From: Opitutus sp.
GTDB lineage: Bacteria > Verrucomicrobiota > Verrucomicrobiia > Opitutales > Opitutaceae
Assembly: GCA_024707325.1 (NCBI GenBank)
Contig: JANPZY010000004.1
Coordinates: 62,001 to 126,000 of the forward strand
Direction: 5' to 3'
Length of the DNA: 64,000 nucleotides
Positions 8,242 through 64,000 of this stretch are shown piece after piece. Position 1 is the stretch's first letter. Every line of letters starts with the position of its first letter. The position numbers and the translations under genes are program-made. Under the pieces are notes generated by a model. The model was not told the DNA's origin, ran no database searches, and was given only the letters and a program-made list of their open reading frames with translations.

Positions 8242-8461
8242 ATGTCGCGACAAGGTGTGGACGTCGTCGCGACCAAGTGCGTCCACGGTCGGGCGGAGGT
8301 GCGAACCAAGTCGCGAGCAGGTCCGGCTCGAGTCGAGCGAAGGTGCGCACACGCCGACGACGAGGTGCGGAGTGGCTTGAACGAAGGTGCGCACACGGTC
8401 GCGACGCGGTGCGGACCGGGACGAGCCCCGTTGCGGATCGTGTGGTGATCGCGTGCGGCTC
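8242..8461 (+). repeat. 22-nt degenerate tandem repeat, array 1 (about 10 units)
   Basis: Ten consecutive units of exactly 22 nt fit one consensus: GRGTCGSGMC followed by AAGGTGCGSACC. Unit starts are 8242, 8264, 8286, 8308, 8330, 8352, 8374, 8396, 8418 and 8440. The last two are the most diverged. No indels break the period. Short ORFs through it are artefacts of a GC-rich repeat with few stops. It fills most of the space between clpC and the transglutaminase-like gene. Confidence 0.88.
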
Positions 8462-14597: not shown

Positions 14598-15284
14598 ATG
14601 AAGATCGTCCTCACTGGAGTCACGCGCGGTCTCGGTCGCGCGCTCGCGATGGAGTTCATTCGGCTCGGCCACACCGTCATCGGTTGCGGCCGCAGCGGCG
14701 ATGCGATCTTCGATCTGCGCATGGACTACCAGGCGCCGCACGATTTTTCGGTCGTCGACGTCGCGCTCGACAACAAAGTCGCGATCTGGGCGGCCAAGGT
14801 GCTCGAGAGCGACAGCGCGCCGGATCTGCTGATCAACAACGCCGGCGTGATGAATCCGCTCGCGCCGCTTTGGGAAATTTCCGATCGCGATTTCACGCGC
14901 GTGACCGACGTCAACATCCGCGGCGTGGCCAACGTCATCCGCCACTTCGTGCCCGCGATGGTGAAGCAAAAACGCGGCGTGATCGTGAATCTGAGTTCGG
15001 GCTGGGGAAGGTCCACGTCGCCCAACGTCGCGCCGTATTGCGCTTCCAAATACGCCATCGAAGGCCTCACGCACGCGATGGCGCAGGAGCTGCCGGAAGG
15101 CGTGGCTGCGATCGCGCTCAATCCGGGCGTCATCGACACGGAAATGCTTCGCAGTTGCTGGGGCGATGATGCCGGCAGCTACCCCAAAGCCCAAGCGTGG
15201 GCCAAGACCGCGGCAGCGTTCATTCTCGGTTTCGGCCCGAAAGATAACGGACGTTCGCTCAGCGTGTCCTCGTTCGAGGATTAA
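14598..15284 (+). CDS. Short-chain dehydrogenase/reductase (SDR)
   Basis: A 228-residue classical SDR. The nucleotide-binding TGVTRGLG motif is at 6-13, NNAG at about 75, and the catalytic SSGWG...YCASK gives Y147 and K151. The substrate is not identifiable. The ATG at 14598 fits the motif spacing; the longer frame from 14487 runs back into exbD. It follows exbD by 61 nt and may be co-transcribed. Array 2 of the 22-nt repeat begins 8 nt after its stop. Confidence 0.9.
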   Translation: MKIVLTGVTRGLGRALAMEFIRLGHTVIGCGRSGDAIFDLRMDYQAPHDFSVVDVALDNKVAIWAAKVLESDSAPDLLINNAGVMNPLAPLWEISDRDFTRVTDVNIRGVANVIRHFVPAMVKQKRGVIVNLSSGWGRSTSPNVAPYCASKYAIEGLTHAMAQELPEGVAAIALNPGVIDTEMLRSCWGDDAGSYPKAQAWAKTAAAFILGFGPKDNGRSLSVSSFED

Positions 15285-15292
15285 TCCGCATC

Positions 15293-15424
15293 GGGTCGCG
15301 CCTGTGTCCGCACCGAGTCGGGCTCAAGTGCGCACACGGTCGAGCCAAGGTGTGAACCAGGTCGAGCCGAGGTGCGGACCAGGTCGGGACAAAGTGCGGC
15401 TCAGGTTGCGACACTGCGCGGCGC
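15293..15424 (+). repeat. 22-nt degenerate tandem repeat, array 2 (5-6 units)
   Basis: Five clear units start at 15293, 15315, 15337, 15359 and 15381. They match the array 1 consensus (GRGTCGSGMC then AAGGTGCGSACC) in the same orientation. A sixth, decayed unit (15403-15424) appears to have a small deletion. It occupies most of the 182-nt gap between the SDR gene and the next small gene. Confidence 0.87.
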
Positions 15425-22367: not shown

Positions 22368-22472
22368 ATGGCTAAGAAATCCTCAAAACCCGCTAAGAAG
22401 ACTGCTAAGAAGACCGCTAAGAAGGCTGCGCCGAAGAAGAAGGTCGCTGCCAAGAAGCGCTCCAAGAAGTAA
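22368..22472 (+). CDS. Small lysine-rich histone H1-like protein, 34 aa
   Basis: A 34-residue ORF starting MAKKSSKPAKKTAKKTAKK and ending KKRSKK. It is almost only Lys, Ala, Thr, Pro and Ser, like the C-terminal tail of histone H1 and of chlamydial Hc1/Hc2. Such peptides bind DNA non-specifically and compact the nucleoid (family knowledge). It is preceded by an A-rich leader and stands alone in a 420-nt space between the CxxCH gene and the convergent SLC13 gene. Codon use is biased to AAG for Lys, supporting translation. It is too short for standard ORF cut-offs. Confidence 0.8.
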   Translation: MAKKSSKPAKKTAKKTAKKAAPKKKVAAKKRSKK

Positions 22473-37578: not shown

Positions 37579-38826
37579 ATGAGCTTGGAACTTACGATTC
37601 TCATGCCGTGCCTCAACGAGGCGCTTACGATTCCCGCGTGTGTGAAAAAGGCGCAGGTCTTTCTTCGCGATCACCAAATCGAGGGAGAGGTGGTGGTCGC
37701 CGACAACGGCAGCACGGATGGCTCGCGCGAACTCGCCACGGAGCTGGGCGCGCGCGTGGTGCCTGTGCCCGTGCGCGGCTACGGCGCTGCGCTCGCTGCA
37801 GGTATCGAGTCTGCTCGTGGTCGCTTCGTCATCATGGGCGACTCGGACGACAGCTACGATTTTTCTGCCCTGCTACCTTTCGTCGAGAAACTGCGTGAGG
37901 GCTACGAGCTCGTCATGGGCAATCGTTTCCGCGGTGGAATCGCGCCCGGTGCGATGCCGCCGTCGCACCGCTATTTCGGCAATCCAATGCTCACGTGGGT
38001 GGGTCGTCTCTTTTTCAACTGCAAGACGTGCGGTGATTTCTACTGCGGGCTGCGGGGCTTCGAAAAACGCGCGATTCAACGACTCGATCTGCAGAGCCGC
38101 GGCATGGAGTTCGCTCTCGAGATGCTGATCAAGGCCGGCATGAACGGCCTGCGCATCACGGAGGTGCCGACGACGCTTTCGCCAGATGGACGCGACCGTC
38201 CGCCGCATCTGCGCAGCTATCGGGATGGATGGAGGAGCTTGCGGCTTTATCTGTTGATGAGCCCGCGGTGGTTTTTTGCCGTGCCGGGATTTTCGCTGCT
38301 GGCGCTCGGTGCCATCGTGATCGGCGCATTGTTGTCCGGTCCGGTTTCGATCGGTGGCGTGCGCTTCGATTATCATACCTTGATCTATGGCGCTGCGGTG
38401 TTCGTGCTCGGATATCAAGCGATCATCGCAGGCGCGTTCGCGAAACTGATCGCGGTCGAAGCCGGACTGCATCCGCCCGTGACAAAGCTTTGGTTTCTCG
38501 AATCGCGCGCGATGTTCGAGCGGCTGCTGATCGCGGGAGGCATCCTCGGCGCAGCCGGCATCGTGTTGGGGCTCTTCGCCACGCAACAATGGGCCGCCGC
38601 CCACTTCGGCAACCTACTGCCGGCCGACACGATCCGTCTCGTGGTCTGTTCGGTGCTCCTGCTCATCCTCGGCGGACAAACGGCGCTGGCCGGCTGTCTG
38701 TCCGGCATGATCAATCTGCTCGCCGATCGTCGGGAGCAGAAGACCGAGGAACGCGTCCGCCGTGAACGCAGCGCAGTTTCGCGAACGACTGATTCCACCT
38801 TTACCGCCATCCGCTCCGAAGCATGA
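37579..38826 (+). CDS. Polyprenyl-phosphate glycosyltransferase (GT2, DPM1/GtrB-like)
   Basis: A 415-residue enzyme with an N-terminal GT-A domain (LTILMPCLNEALTI, VVADNGSTDGS, and the GDSDDSYDF metal-binding motif at about 93) and a C-terminal membrane part with four or more helices (about 225-375). Such enzymes load a sugar on a polyprenyl phosphate at the inner membrane face. It starts a five-gene operon; its stop overlaps the next ATG by 4 nt. The donor sugar is unknown. Confidence 0.92.
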   Translation: MSLELTILMPCLNEALTIPACVKKAQVFLRDHQIEGEVVVADNGSTDGSRELATELGARVVPVPVRGYGAALAAGIESARGRFVIMGDSDDSYDFSALLPFVEKLREGYELVMGNRFRGGIAPGAMPPSHRYFGNPMLTWVGRLFFNCKTCGDFYCGLRGFEKRAIQRLDLQSRGMEFALEMLIKAGMNGLRITEVPTTLSPDGRDRPPHLRSYRDGWRSLRLYLLMSPRWFFAVPGFSLLALGAIVIGALLSGPVSIGGVRFDYHTLIYGAAVFVLGYQAIIAGAFAKLIAVEAGLHPPVTKLWFLESRAMFERLLIAGGILGAAGIVLGLFATQQWAAAHFGNLLPADTIRLVVCSVLLLILGGQTALAGCLSGMINLLADRREQKTEERVRRERSAVSRTTDSTFTAIRSEA

Positions 38827-40619
38827 ACACGTCCTCATCCATCGCGGGCGCGGATCATGCCTTGGAGCGCACCGGGTCGTGGCTCGCTGCGGCTCGACTC
38901 GAGCGTTGGAGCGCACCGAGTCGCGACTTGTTGCGGATCGGCTTGGGCATCGGGGTGGCTTGCCTCGCGATCCTGCTCTGGCTGCCGCGGCTCAAGGGAC
39001 CGATCGACCTGCGTTACGACGCCGGAGTGTATTACGTGTTGGGCACTTCGCTCGCCCACGGAGAAGGCTACCGCATCATCAGCGAGCCTGGTGCACCTGA
39101 AGGTATTCAGTATCCGCCTGGTTTGCCGGCGCTGGTCGCGCTGCACCAGCTCGTGCTCGGCACCAGCGATCCTGCGGTGGTCGGTCAATTTTTGCGGCTG
39201 ACCTATGCGCTGATGTTTGTCGCGTTGTCGCTCGCGCTCTATGCGCTGGCGAGGCGCTGGGTGGGAGAGTGGGCCGGTGCGGCGGCCACCGTGCTCTGTC
39301 TGTTACAGGTAAACACCTATCTGCTTTCGGACATGCTCTTCACCGAGCTGCCGTTCGCACTCGTCACCGTGCTGCTCGCGATGTGGTTGCACAATCAGCG
39401 GGAGCGCGAGGGCAGCGCGCAGAGCGAACTCGTCGGCTGGTTGCTGGCGACGCTGACCTTTGCGCTCCGGTCGGCCGGAATCGCGGTGTTGTTTGCGTGG
39501 GTGGGCGAGGCGGCGATTCGCCGTCGCTTCCGTCTCGCACTGCTCCGTGCAGCCCTCGCGGCCGTGCCGTTTCTCGCCTGGCAGGCGCATGTCGCTCGCG
39601 TGCAGTCGAGCGAGGACTATCGCTCGCCGGCCTACGAATATCAGCGCGCGCCCTACCAGTTCTACAACGTGAGCTACTCGGACAACATGAAGCTCACCGA
39701 TCCGTTCGCACCGGAACTCGGTCCGGTGAGCTCCGCAGTGCTCGGCAGCCGTGTGTTGTCGAATCTCTGGCAAAGTCCGCTGAACTTCGGCGAGGCGGTG
39801 AGTGAGACTCGCGGTTTCTGGGTCGCCACGGGCGATGCGATGTTGGCGCCCGTGCTCGGTCCGCGTTGGCCGACGTTGCTGGTCACGCTGCCGTTTGTGC
39901 TCGCGGCGTTTGTCGCGACATGGGGACTTTGGGAACTGGTTCGCGCGCGACTGTGGTTTGCGGCGCTGTTTGTCGGATCGTCCATCCTGCTCGTCTGCAC
40001 GACGCCGTGGCCCGGACAATTTCTCCGCTATCTAGCGCCTCTCGTTCCGTTCCTCGCGATCGCTGCCATGCTGGCTGCGGTGCGCTTCAGCCGAGAGATC
40101 CTCACCGTGCGATCGACCTTGATTCGACGCGCCCTTCTGGGCGCGGGCGTCGCTACAATGGTGTGTTCGTTGGCCGTGCAAGCCTACACGCTGATGAACA
40201 GTTTCCGGGTGCGTCACTACTCGCCGTCATTGGTCGAAGGGGAAACGCGCCGGTGGAACAGTCCGCGCTGGTTTTATCATGAGCGTCCGTGGCATCACTG
40301 GGGCGCGGCGGTTTCGTGGCTTGCAACCCACGCGCCTGCCGGCGCCGTGGTCGCGACAACGTCGCCGCATCTGCTGAATCTTCGCACCGGGCATCCCGCA
40401 GTGATGCCGCCGATGGAAGCCGATCCGGCGCGGGCCAACGCTCTCATGCAGCGCGTGCCGATCGACTATCTGATTGTCGATGAAATGGACTTTCTCGATA
40501 TCGCGCGGCGCTACGCCTTGCCTGCAGTCGAGAGCGATCCGGCAAGCTGGGCCTTGGTTCACCGCGTCGGCGGCACGCGGGTGTTTCAGCGGATCGCAGG
40601 CGAGGGCAAGCAGCCATGA
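38823..40619 (+). CDS. GT39/ArnT-like membrane glycosyltransferase
   Basis: A 598-residue polytopic protein with about 10-12 helices and a periplasmic loop after the first helix that carries RYDAGVYYVLGTSLAHGEGYR and YPPGLPAL, as in GT-C transferases using polyprenyl-phosphate sugars. A soluble C-terminal domain (about 470-598) follows. Residues about 11-39, before the first helix, are encoded by four units of the 22-nt repeat. A start further in (for example TTG 38928 or 38931, just before LLRIGLGIG) would leave the array outside the protein. Overlapping ends couple it to its neighbours. Confidence 0.82.
   Translation: MNTSSSIAGADHALERTGSWLAAARLERWSAPSRDLLRIGLGIGVACLAILLWLPRLKGPIDLRYDAGVYYVLGTSLAHGEGYRIISEPGAPEGIQYPPGLPALVALHQLVLGTSDPAVVGQFLRLTYALMFVALSLALYALARRWVGEWAGAAATVLCLLQVNTYLLSDMLFTELPFALVTVLLAMWLHNQREREGSAQSELVGWLLATLTFALRSAGIAVLFAWVGEAAIRRRFRLALLRAALAAVPFLAWQAHVARVQSSEDYRSPAYEYQRAPYQFYNVSYSDNMKLTDPFAPELGPVSSAVLGSRVLSNLWQSPLNFGEAVSETRGFWVATGDAMLAPVLGPRWPTLLVTLPFVLAAFVATWGLWELVRARLWFAALFVGSSILLVCTTPWPGQFLRYLAPLVPFLAIAAMLAAVRFSREILTVRSTLIRRALLGAGVATMVCSLAVQAYTLMNSFRVRHYSPSLVEGETRRWNSPRWFYHERPWHHWGAAVSWLATHAPAGAVVATTSPHLLNLRTGHPAVMPPMEADPARANALMQRVPIDYLIVDEMDFLDIARRYALPAVESDPASWALVHRVGGTRVFQRIAGEGKQP
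38852..38939 (+). repeat. 22-nt degenerate tandem repeat, array within the GT39 gene (4 units)
   Basis: Four in-phase units start at 38852, 38874, 38896 and 38918 and fit the same consensus and orientation as arrays 1 and 2. They lie inside the annotated N-terminus of the GT39 gene. Units share GGAGCGCACC or TGCGGMTC right halves, so they are related to each other as well as to the other arrays. Confidence 0.8.
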
Positions 40620-42208
40620 GTCACTCCGTATCCACTTTTTCAGCACATGCGCTTGCGCCCCTTGGCGCATCGCAGGCGGAGGCGGCAATGCCTGATCCGC
40701 TCATTGCGACCCTCGCGCTACGCGAGGCGTTTCGCGACGACTACTGGGAGCGCCGCGATCCGATCATCGACGATCGACTGCTGTGGCGCGCCCAGACGTT
40801 TCGCCACACCGTGCACCTGCTGCCCGGTCAGACGATTCTCGAGCTGGGCGGAGGGCGGGGACGTTTCACCCGCGTGCTGCAACGTCTCACCAAAGGCGAA
40901 AATCCGCTCACCACGGTCACTTTTCAACAGGAGGAGGCGGCAACGTTTGATCTGCATGGCGGCGTCGAACACGTGCGGGCGCGCCAACTGCCCGGGCCGC
41001 TCGCGGGTCGCAAGTTCGACTGCATCGTCGCGATGGATCTGCTCGATGACCAGAACTCGGCGGATCTTTTGCAGATCGTGCATGACCTGCTCGCTCCGGG
41101 AGGCGAGGTGGTGTTCTACGAGAGCAATCCCTGGAATCCGGTGCGCAGTCTGCGGGCGGCGACGGCACAACTTTTCGGCGGACGTGATCCGCGGCGCCTG
41201 TTGAACCGCAAGAAGCTCTACGAGTTGATCTCGGAGATCGGTTTCATCCGCGTTTACGCGGTCTACAACGACTTCGTTTTTGCGCCGCTCCCGCGACGCG
41301 CGATCTGGTGGTTCCGCAATCTCTCGATTCTCCTCGAGAATGCGCCAGTTGTTTCCGCGCTTGCCGGCTCGATTCTGTTGCACGCGCAAAAACCTCCGCG
41401 GAAGCGTGAGATCGTCGGCGTAAATCTCTTCGAACACGAGGTGCTGCGAGGCGCGGTGTCCGTGGTGATCCCGTGTCGCAACGAGGAAATGAACATCGGC
41501 GTGCTCGTCCGAAAGATCCTCGAGCTTTACGGCGGCTACGTGCACGAAGTGATCCCCGTCGATGACGGCAGCACCGATCGCACACGCGAGGTCATGGCGG
41601 CACTCGCAGCCGAGGATGCTCGCGTAAAACCGCTGCATCGCACGCCGCCGCACGGAGTGGGACATGCGATCGCGGCCGGACTACGCGCGGCGCGTGGACG
41701 CTACGTGCTCACGATGGATTGCGATTTCGAGCATCTGTTGCCGGAGCTTCGCGACCTCTTCGACGCGGGCGCGCAGGGCGGCTACGACGTGGTGATGGGC
41801 AGCCGGTTTTCCCGACACAGCGTGCTGCTGAATTATCCGTTCATGAAGATTGTGGCGAACCGCACGTTTCACGGTCTCGCGCGCATTCTGCTCGGTTACA
41901 CGATCCGCGATGTCACCAACAACTTGAAGCTGATGAAGCGCGAGGTGGTGGACGCGCTCATCCTGCAGCAGCCTGGCTTTGCGGTGAACGCGGAGACCGG
42001 ACTGCAGCCGGTCGTCCTCGGCTGCAAGGTCCGGGAGATGCCGATCTCGTGGATTAACCGCACGCCGGGCATGGGCACGTCGTCTTTCCGGCTCGTTCGC
42101 GTGGGCGGCGGCTACTGGCGCGTTCTGGCCGGACTTTGGTGGAAACGGCTTTTTCAAACCGGACCGTATCGAGACCTTGGATGCAAACCGCGTTCGCCCC
42201 AGTCCTGA
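40616..42208 (+). CDS. Methyltransferase-glycosyltransferase (GT2) fusion
   Basis: A 530-residue two-domain protein. Residues about 60-240 form a class I SAM-dependent methyltransferase (motif I ILELGGGRGRF at about 73-83, and DCIVAMDLLDD at about 137). Residues about 280-520 form a GT-A glycosyltransferase (SVVIPCRNEE, PVDDGSTD at about 315, and TMDCDFEH at about 367). Both halves have their key motifs, so the protein may methylate and extend one glycan. An ATG at 40688 would trim 24 residues. It overlaps both neighbours in the operon. Confidence 0.88.
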   Translation: MSHSVSTFSAHALAPLGASQAEAAMPDPLIATLALREAFRDDYWERRDPIIDDRLLWRAQTFRHTVHLLPGQTILELGGGRGRFTRVLQRLTKGENPLTTVTFQQEEAATFDLHGGVEHVRARQLPGPLAGRKFDCIVAMDLLDDQNSADLLQIVHDLLAPGGEVVFYESNPWNPVRSLRAATAQLFGGRDPRRLLNRKKLYELISEIGFIRVYAVYNDFVFAPLPRRAIWWFRNLSILLENAPVVSALAGSILLHAQKPPRKREIVGVNLFEHEVLRGAVSVVIPCRNEEMNIGVLVRKILELYGGYVHEVIPVDDGSTDRTREVMAALAAEDARVKPLHRTPPHGVGHAIAAGLRAARGRYVLTMDCDFEHLLPELRDLFDAGAQGGYDVVMGSRFSRHSVLLNYPFMKIVANRTFHGLARILLGYTIRDVTNNLKLMKREVVDALILQQPGFAVNAETGLQPVVLGCKVREMPISWINRTPGMGTSSFRLVRVGGGYWRVLAGLWWKRLFQTGPYRDLGCKPRSPQS

Positions 42209-43866
42209 CCGATCGCGTGTCGTCCGCGCGCGTCCGAGAACGCTCCCTGATTTCGTGGGCGTTGCCGGCGGTGGTTGTTCTCGCGGCGGTGCTGCAGATT
42301 GGCGGCGCGGCGCGGCAGGGCTTGTGGCCCGACGAAATCTTTTCCCTCGCGATGGCGACGGGACACAGTCTCGAACATCCAGCTGCTGCGGCTCAACCGG
42401 AGTTCGGCGATTATGTTGAGCGCGAGGGCCCGGCGACCGCGCGTCACTACCGGCAATATCTCGCCCACGGCGATTCTTCCGCGGGTATCGGTCAAGTGGT
42501 CCGCGCGGTGTTTCTGTCGGATACGAGCCCGCCGCTTTATTACGTCGGGCTCTACGGATGGACGCGTGTCTTCGGCACGAGCGATTGGGCGCTGCGAGGT
42601 TTCTCGATCGTATGCTCGCTCGCGGCGCTGCCGTTTCTGGTCGCGATCGCGCGACGCATTTCTCCCTCTGACAATGCGCTGCTGCCGGCGGTCCTTTTCG
42701 CGTGTGCACCGCTGGCCGTCTATTACTCGGGCGAGGGCCGCATGTATGGGCTACTCTGGCTGCTCGTCTGCGCGCATGGTTGGACGACCTTGCGCGTGCA
42801 TGAAAGCGGAGCGCCGCGCAGTTCGCTCGCGTGGCTGCTTACGTCGGCGGCAGGCATGCTTACGCACTACTTCTTCGTTTTCCCATGGGCTGCGAGCGTA
42901 GCGTTTCTCTTTCTGCAACCGGGCGCGGATCGACGCTGGTTGCTCGGTCTGCGGTTGGTGGTCGTCGCTACGCTTCTGCTTCCGTGGTTCTGGCATGTGC
43001 CAGAGAGTCTGCGTCAATGGCGCGTCACCGGCAGCTGGCTCGAGTGGGCGCCGCCCGGTTACCAACGTCTCGTCGCGCTGCGCGATCTGGTGATGCAGTT
43101 CTTTACCGGACGATCGTCGATGCTGTGGGCCTCGGATCGCACCGCGGAAAAACTCGCGCTGCTCGCCTGCACGGCGGTGGCGATCGCCGCGCTTTGGCGC
43201 GTGAGACTGCGTGTTTTCTCCGGCCCGCGTTTGTTCGTGTGGCTCTGGTTCGTGGCGGCATGTGCGGGACCGGTGGTGTTCGATCTTTGGCGCGGCACCT
43301 ACACGCACACGTATTCGCGTTATGCGGCGACGGCGCTGCCGGCAGTTTGCCTGCTCGCGGGCGGTGCTGCGGCTGCGCTGGGCCGGATTCCGCGCGCGGT
43401 GTGGCTGGTGCTGCTGTTGATCTCCTGGAGCCCGAGTCTGGCGAACATCTACCGCAATCGCGCGCGCAGCGGTTCTCCGGTTCGTGAAGCGGCGCAACTC
43501 GCCAGCCGACTCGCAGGCCCAGACGAACTGCTGGTCGTGCACTCCATTCCGTCGGGCGTGCTCGGCATCGCGCGCTACGCGGATCCGTCGACGCCCATTG
43601 TGGCGTGGACGGGCCAGCTTGGTCAGCGGCAGATGCCGACGAGTATCGAGCAACTGGCCGCCGGACGGGATCGGATCGTGTTCGTGCGATTGCACGATGT
43701 GGGTGAACCCGCGCCACAGGAAGAGTGGTTGCGGATGACGCATGCGATCGCATTGGAGAAGCGGATCGGCTCGATCAACGTCATCGAGTTTCGGTCGCTG
43801 CAACTGGCCGCGGTAACGTCCGGCGCCGGGGAGGGAGGCTCCGATGCGAACATCAGTTCTCGTTAA
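42181..43866 (+). CDS. GT39-like membrane glycosyltransferase
   Basis: A 561-residue polytopic protein (about 10 helices). The first periplasmic loop has GLWPDEIFSLAMATG, whose Asp-Glu pair matches the catalytic motif of PMT/ArnT-like GT-C enzymes, and SDTSPPLYYVGLYGW. It probably moves a polyprenyl-linked sugar to an acceptor on the periplasmic side. ATG 42181 is preferred; an earlier frame start (42136) overlaps its neighbour by 73 nt. Overlap with the upstream gene is 28 nt, with the downstream one 23 nt. Confidence 0.88.
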   Translation: MQTAFAPVLTDRVSSARVRERSLISWALPAVVVLAAVLQIGGAARQGLWPDEIFSLAMATGHSLEHPAAAAQPEFGDYVEREGPATARHYRQYLAHGDSSAGIGQVVRAVFLSDTSPPLYYVGLYGWTRVFGTSDWALRGFSIVCSLAALPFLVAIARRISPSDNALLPAVLFACAPLAVYYSGEGRMYGLLWLLVCAHGWTTLRVHESGAPRSSLAWLLTSAAGMLTHYFFVFPWAASVAFLFLQPGADRRWLLGLRLVVVATLLLPWFWHVPESLRQWRVTGSWLEWAPPGYQRLVALRDLVMQFFTGRSSMLWASDRTAEKLALLACTAVAIAALWRVRLRVFSGPRLFVWLWFVAACAGPVVFDLWRGTYTHTYSRYAATALPAVCLLAGGAAAALGRIPRAVWLVLLLISWSPSLANIYRNRARSGSPVREAAQLASRLAGPDELLVVHSIPSGVLGIARYADPSTPIVAWTGQLGQRQMPTSIEQLAAGRDRIVFVRLHDVGEPAPQEEWLRMTHAIALEKRIGSINVIEFRSLQLAAVTSGAGEGGSDANISSR

Positions 43867-44764
43867 CAATTTCAACAACGCGCGCTTCCTCCGCACGTGC
43901 ATCGATTCGGTGCTCGGGCAGACGAGGACGCCGGACGAGATTATCGTCTACGACGACGGCAGCACGGACGATAGTATCCGGATTCTGGAGACATACGGTG
44001 AGGCGATCCGCGTGATCCGCGGCGAGCGGCAGGCCGGTCTGCCCTGGAACAATCAGGCGAAAGCGATCGAGCACGCGTTTCGCGCGTGCAGTGGCGACAT
44101 CGTGTTTCTGCTCGATTCAGACGACGCGTTCGCGTCGGGAAAGATCGCGGCATATCTGCCTGTGTTCGCAGCCGACGAATCGGTCGTGATGGTGCAGTCG
44201 CCCCTGTGGAAAATCGACGACGACGGCGTCTACACGGGCATCGAATACGACGTGCGCCGCCACGCCTCGGACTACCTGCGGCACATCGCCGAGACGCACG
44301 AGGTGAACATCTACTATCCGACGAGCTCGCTCGCGTTTCGCCGGAGCTATCTGCAACAGCGTTTGCCGCTGGAGGTGGGCGACGGCCTCGCGTTGTGGCC
44401 CGATGCCCGCCTCAGCCTGATCGCGCCGCACTTCGGGAAGATCGTGACGCTCGATCAGCCTTTCACGTGGTGGCGGCGTCACGCGGCGTCACACACGGTC
44501 GTGCGGAAAACGAGCGTTTACGAGCAGGTCTCGATGAACCGCACGTTCTATAACGCGTTTTGCTGCGCGCGCGGATTGCCGCAAGTGAGCACGTGGCGCA
44601 GTCGCGAGCATCGGCGTCGTTGGTTAAGGCACATCAGTCCGGAATGGCTGGTGCGCGTTTACCACTACCAACGCTGGTGGCGAGGGTATCACCTCGGGCA
44701 TCCGGTTATCGCCACACCGCAACCAGCCCCGGCACGCGACGAGTCGCGCGTGAGTGCGGCGTGA
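43844..44764 (+). CDS. Family 2 glycosyltransferase
   Basis: A 306-residue soluble GT-A enzyme: TSVLVNNFNNARFLRTCID, YDDGSTDDS and the LLDSDDAF metal-binding motif at about 90. It is the last gene in the operon and has a clear purine-rich Shine-Dalgarno site (GGGAGGGAGG) before its ATG. Its last eight codons (ending DESRVSAA) lie inside the first unit of a 22-nt repeat array, so the array has reached the coding end. Confidence 0.92.
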   Translation: MRTSVLVNNFNNARFLRTCIDSVLGQTRTPDEIIVYDDGSTDDSIRILETYGEAIRVIRGERQAGLPWNNQAKAIEHAFRACSGDIVFLLDSDDAFASGKIAAYLPVFAADESVVMVQSPLWKIDDDGVYTGIEYDVRRHASDYLRHIAETHEVNIYYPTSSLAFRRSYLQQRLPLEVGDGLALWPDARLSLIAPHFGKIVTLDQPFTWWRRHAASHTVVRKTSVYEQVSMNRTFYNAFCCARGLPQVSTWRSREHRRRWLRHISPEWLVRVYHYQRWWRGYHLGHPVIATPQPAPARDESRVSAA

Positions 44765-44894
44765 GTCGGGACTGAGTGCGGACCGACTCGGGACAATGTG
44801 CGCACCGGGTCGGGCCAAGGTGCGGACACGGTCGACGCAAGGTCCGGACCGAGTCGCGACAAGGTGCGGCTCGAGTCGAGCCGAAGTGCGCGCT
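44741..44894 (+). repeat. 22-nt degenerate tandem repeat, array between convergent genes (7 units)
   Basis: Seven exact 22-nt units start at 44741, 44763, 44785, 44807, 44829, 44851 and 44873, all on the consensus of the other arrays. The first unit covers the end of the GT2 gene (stop at 44762-44764), and the last ends on the first base of the opposing gene's stop codon (44894-44896). The array fills the whole space between the two stop codons. Confidence 0.9.
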
Positions 44895-63952: not shown

Positions 63953-64000
63953 AGTGAAAACCTGCGCCCGACTCGAGCCGCACCTTGGCGCGACGTGGTG
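63953..64000 (-). repeat. 22-nt degenerate tandem repeat, array at the right edge (2 or more units, inverted)
   Basis: On the minus strand, a unit at 63975-63996 (ACGTCGCGCC then AAGGTGCGGCTC) and a diverged unit at 63953-63974 match the repeat consensus. The array runs off the window edge, so its length is unknown. It is the only array here in the opposite orientation. Confidence 0.7.

Follow-up and report, generated by a model that had tools for sequence, protein, structure and literature searches.

A degraded 22-bp repeat array within the 5′ end of a GT-C glycosyltransferase gene of Opitutus sp., one of a species-specific family of helically phased arrays

The 5′ end of a membrane glycosyltransferase gene of Opitutus sp. 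carries a degraded array with a 22-bp period, one of a large, species-specific family that is absent from relatives, as sampled from one genome of the species. Comparison with homologous sequences makes it very probable that the encoded protein has a longer N-terminal tail because of the array; translation most likely starts at ATG 38823, and the tail then owes its surplus of about 25 floppy residues to the array. For the family as a whole, the best explanation, to which we give slightly better than an even chance, is that of helically phased, species-specific DNA-binding arrays, tolerated here as a translated transferase tail. The window, that is the whole stretch of 64,000 nucleotides analysed, corresponds to C1:62001-126000 of a 4.04-Mb genome in four contigs and contains the following features:

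37579..38826, plus strand: upstream GT2 glycosyltransferase gene (Pfam Glycos_transf_2)
38823..40619, plus strand: gene of a membrane GT-C glycosyltransferase, 598 aa, called GT39 in the initial annotation (ORF, homologues, AlphaFold/Foldseek fold)
38852..38939, plus strand: degraded 22-bp-period array of about 3.5-4 units in the 5′ end of the GT-C transferase gene
38928..38933, plus strand: alternative TTG starts 38928 and 38931 from the start-codon listing, which in a rival reading leave the array upstream of the gene
8255..8430, plus strand: another array of the family, intergenic, with 7 called units
15284..15415, plus strand: array of 6 units between convergent genes, beginning at the stop codon of gene 14598-15284
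44754..44885, plus strand: array of 6 units between convergent genes, overlapping stop codon 44762-44764
63962..64000, minus strand: start of a further array of 7 units that crosses the window end (C1:125962-126115)

The ATG of the transferase gene overlaps the stop codon of the GT2 gene (ATGA). The GT39 label is loose. The protein has no match in Pfam or NCBIfam and thus none to the PMT or PMT_2 models that would place it in GT39/PMT; PMT_2 is reached, at E 0.013, by one of the six aligned members of the transferase family, the window protein not matching. Its AlphaFold model (pTM 0.79) matches OST, ArnT and DPY19 in Foldseek at E 1e-6 to 3e-5, so the predicted structure has the fold of the GT-C superfamily. 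Residues 1-29 of the model have pLDDT below 50 and the first long helix spans residues 31-57; the array, encoding residues ~11-39, therefore ends where the first membrane helix begins, in agreement with the initial placement of the repeat ahead of that helix. The gene belongs to a cluster at 37579-43866 that comprises GT2, GT-C, a methyltransferase-GT2 fusion and a second membrane protein. A homologue of this second membrane protein also stands next to two of the distant transferase relatives (L101 and L102). Elsewhere in the window, at 22368-22472 on the plus strand, a small lysine-rich ORF of 34 aa (MAKKSSKPAKKTAKKTAKKAAPKKKVAAKKRSKK) resembling the tail of histone H1 lies between larger genes.

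Within the array, units in the register of the family start at 38865, 38887, 38909 and 38931, with unit PWM scores of 13.2, 8.4, 17.9 and 8.1, and a decayed half-unit precedes the first of them, which makes 38852-38939 a fair outline. The first three units sum to 39.5, far above every control, as the best three-unit sums were −8.0 when both strands of 400 kb from related genomes were scanned and −0.6 in the reversed own sequence; the existence and location of the array, as first annotated, are thereby upheld. It includes a 44-nt direct repeat and begins 26 nt past the GT2 stop codon, a position typical for the family. By score it stands near the weak end of the family, with a mean unit score as low in just one of 90 intergenic arrays, and it was not detected in a TRF run; an Rfam search over the window returned one tRNA and no other match. 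The initial annotation also held that the array can be read through in every frame with few stops since 66 nt equal 22 codons. Arrays are indeed mostly open, on average in 4.3 of 6 frames per array versus 2.4 in shuffles and 2.8 in other intergenic DNA; the codon arithmetic contributes little to this, which arises mainly from a consensus free of stop triplets.

For the family, a contiguous 480 kb and a further 33 stretches of 20 kb were analysed, together 1.14 Mb of the genome. These yielded 102 arrays, whereas the same sequence reversed and 400 kb from relatives yielded none; extrapolation from this sample gives about 360 arrays per genome. The median array has 6 units and 132 bp. The consensus of the 22-bp lattice, GTGCGSACC-RR-GTCGVGMC-AAG, contains two near-palindromic cores per unit, GTGCGSAC and GTCGVGMC, whose dyads are 11 bp apart. 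A one-unit pattern has 1350 matches in the own genome and background levels elsewhere in the bacterial family, and a two-unit pattern has 1608 matches versus 0-4 per genome in 386 others of the phylum. Exact matches are absent from viral contigs, TRF found no 22-bp arrays in samples of three other genomes (G058, G001, G020), and no description of this family was found in the open literature. An excess of matches in the related genome G058, considered as possible related arrays, was traced to a GAGCGCACCCAGCCGRGYC repeat within a longer dispersed IS-like element (L117-L124). Other repeats were seen in passing: a CGTC-type palindrome, CGCGACGCCCTCGTCGCG, is an ordinary REP-like repeat common to the own genome and G001 (L041-L100, L125-L134), at about 8-9 strand-summed copies per 200 kb, while a separate repeat, CTCAACTCTCAACCC, has 12 strand-summed copies per 200 kb (C1:1-200000) and none in the G001 sample.

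Most arrays stand at the 3′ ends of genes; their spacing is even, at ~11 kb, and they keep an exact helical register while non-core positions vary. Convergent gaps are occupied in 33 of 94 cases and divergent regions in 9 of 126 (p 2e-7). Between tandem genes, 21 of 44 arrays lie within 30 nt of a stop codon and 4 within 30 nt of a start; array beginnings are often within 25 nt of a stop codon and starts are avoided, with nearby stop codons tending to sit in lattice spacers. The mean spacing is 10.9 kb with a CV of 0.55, compared with 0.92 ± 0.13 for gene-context-matched nulls (p 1e-4), and gaps under 4 kb are depleted, with 2 observed versus 12.7 expected and, in the independent 20-kb stretches, 1 versus 12.1. 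Orientation shows no bias (27/17, p 0.17), and a replication polarity in which all arrays on C1 would be plus-strand was ruled out, the orientations being mixed.

Twelve of the 102 arrays (about 12%) fall in predicted genes, whose start positions are approximate because the calls come from a simple purpose-built codon model. The in-gene arrays checked, in GlmM, LarC, a UDG-family protein and a PAP2 protein, where the array comes directly past the signal peptide, sit in tolerant places. Arrays in conserved genes, usually in a linker or loop, are the following:

L065 1350-1415: molybdopterin oxidoreductase gene
L079 15788-15897: GlmM, between domains I and II
L068 19794-19903: loop of LarC
L047 13127-13258: N-terminal linker of a UDG-family protein

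Of the lattice steps between units, 514 of 521 are multiples of 22 bp, and 597 of 623 units are distinct. Adjacent units are 0.639 identical and random units 0.621, against a column-frequency expectation of 0.6205. The best core positions are 91-98% fixed, a conservation somewhat inflated because the motif model was itself used to find the units, and other positions are free. Mutual information between positions is short-range; complementary covariation between units was not seen, nor was a duplication signature among units within one array, and the flanks of 89 arrays contain no conserved ends beyond a half-unit. T-tracts accompany 4-7% of array ends, compared with 11% among other intergenic sites. 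As RNA, both strands fold moderately more strongly than shuffles do, with mean z of −2.5 and −2.1. Slippage or recent copying is disfavoured because the units are diverse while register and cores are kept, the opposite of the trace expected from such processes.

Two possibilities had been offered for the transferase, an array kept as a cytosolic tail or a true start further downstream, and of these the first fits better. No clear relatives of the protein occur among 252 genomes of the bacterial family; five are found elsewhere (L101-L105), in MAGs labelled Chthoniobacterales, Gemmatimonadetes, Nitrospira, Deltaproteobacteria and Gemmatimonadales, i.e., under four phylum labels. In the window protein 58 residues precede the conserved GP[IL]D motif, against 29-41 in the homologues with a definable start (L101 41, L103 32-39, L105 29-33), a comparison with few and distant sequences (38-47% identity) whose own tail length varies. 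L104, with a single ATG/GTG/TTG start, has 13 residues in a frame that opens at most 47 codons upstream, and L102 is cut off and gives no count. L105 shares the junction of GT2 and transferase genes, with a GTGA start/stop overlap and a tail of 33 residues, 75 nt shorter than in the window. It is from these tail lengths and this junction that lengthening by the array appears very probable. Aligning orthologues, as the initial annotation proposed, left its premise intact, since none of the five relatives keeps the array-encoded residues and no conserved tail of 30 residues emerged. That the gene instead begins at TTG 38928/38931 or GTG 38955, leaving an ordinary GT2 3′-end array between genes, seems rather unlikely to us, even though the family-typical distance from the GT2 stop, the lack of tail conservation and the non-coding-like codon usage of the tail (−0.04 per codon versus +0.17 for residues 40-100) would all suit it. 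A start at either TTG, although possible, is weaker than ATG 38823: it leaves 22-23 residues before GPID, fewer than in every clear-start homologue (L101, L103, L105), and L105, with its GTGA overlap, offers a parallel to the ATGA overlap here. An obvious ribosome-binding site is lacking before both TTGs, as it is before ATG 38823.

The remaining alternatives concern the arrays themselves. In-gene palindromic repeats are usually interpreted as scars of mobile elements, and a selfish REP/RPE-like palindrome, spread by a transposase such as RAYT and inserted in the transferase gene, would be in keeping with the single Y1_Tnp gene of the genome and with the behaviour of REPs, which lie at gene ends, may supply stop codons and in some cases stand within ORFs, encoding 20-30 residues (PMC3733652). 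Arrays do share the preference of REP/BIME elements for gene 3′ ends and convergent genes, but the consensus is not a 20-40 bp palindrome with a GTAG (or CGTC) end tag, and 3.3 kb around the Y1 gene contain no arrays. The arrays are not filed as REPs because this tag, conserved ends and linkage to a RAYT transposase are all lacking. Insertions would not be expected to produce even spacing and independent units, nor does the array in GlmM make that protein longer than its relatives, and we regard this origin as improbable. Invasion, as worded in the initial annotation, would be one possibility: other in-gene arrays sit in linkers, but GlmM is not lengthened and units within one array are free of a duplication signature. 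An RNA-level element at transcript 3′ ends, either terminator or mRNA stabiliser, with the location in the operon incidental, would explain the preference for 3′ ends and convergent gaps as well as folding z of about −2 on both strands. This is weakened by the missing preference for the transcribed strand, by the lack of base-pair covariation and by the lack of the T-tracts that follow the hairpin of an intrinsic terminator, and it leaves the even genomic spacing without explanation; some support for an RNA-level role may persist in the folding excess, yet as a full account it also strikes us as quite unlikely. Neutral expansion of a minisatellite by slippage fits tandem, short-period and mostly intergenic repeats, but units of the same array are not more alike than random ones (0.62-0.64 versus 0.62) and the register is kept; a slippage origin is rejected on these identities and appears very improbable.

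The register, the fixed cores, the lack of strand preference and the lack of T-tracts speak for selection on helically phased, double-stranded DNA; in appearance, the arrays are closer to DNA-binding sites than to ordinary junk repeats. Under the binding explanation, each array would serve as a helically phased platform to which a candidate protein, probably a dimer, binds sequence-specifically; this protein may organise or insulate the chromosome, and selection would target the DNA motif. At 38852-38939 the favoured site just past the GT2 stop is already the 5′ end of the next gene; the array falls in coding sequence because the two genes overlap by ATGA. There it would be tolerated as ~25 disordered N-terminal residues read from ATG 38823, its motif possibly weakened by double duty. 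A more specific version, in which a candidate DNA-binding protein of a species-specific chromosome-organising system is loaded on, or wraps, the DNA at ~360 phased-dyad arrays about 11 kb apart, the need for them being strong enough that they also enter coding sequence (the GT-C tail, the linkers of GlmM and UDG and a loop of LarC), falls somewhat short of an even chance in our judgement. That arrays of such apparent age should be confined to one species speaks against the binding explanation.

If the binding explanation is true, the arrays offer a ready map of ~360 sites for finding the binding protein, and a demand at the DNA level can reshape protein tails and linkers. Register and core bases kept while other similarity is lost, together with even spacing, would then reflect a selected DNA function spilling into proteins.

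Among known systems, the type II plasmid centromeres, parC of R1/pSK41 with ParR (PMC5016525), likewise consist of tandem phased sites, bound by a small dimeric DNA-wrapping protein, but parC is a single array beside its par operon, whereas here ~360 arrays are dispersed along the chromosome. Strong gyrase sites, including BIME-2 (PMC6379681), show a helically phased G+C pattern over ~130 bp and an association with 3′ ends, comparable to the median array of 132 bp; the arrays differ by their explicit one-species motif. Both parallels are analogies of how such systems work, with membership not claimed. CRISPR loci, with identical repeats and unique spacers, are unlike these diverse units that follow one another at exactly 22 bp. 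Rickettsia palindromic elements are also palindromic repeats read in frame at tolerant protein sites, but have another sequence and architecture, and the arrays here are mostly extragenic; in-frame lengthening versus relatives, their hallmark, is supported for the GT-C tail and not for GlmM, the UDG-family linker being variable in length anyway. In-gene palindromic repeats are already known even in Opitutus terrae, in which REPs inside ORFs, encoding 20-30 residues, are commonest (PMC3733652). The GTAG REPs of that species and other REP/BIME elements resemble the arrays as hundreds of GC-rich palindromic repeats in convergent and tandem gaps, near stop codons and in some cases in genes (PMC3733652). 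The arrays differ in their continuous 22-bp lattice, 11-bp dyads, even spacing and lack of a 20-40 bp hairpin unit, and they occupy the niche that REPs hold elsewhere.
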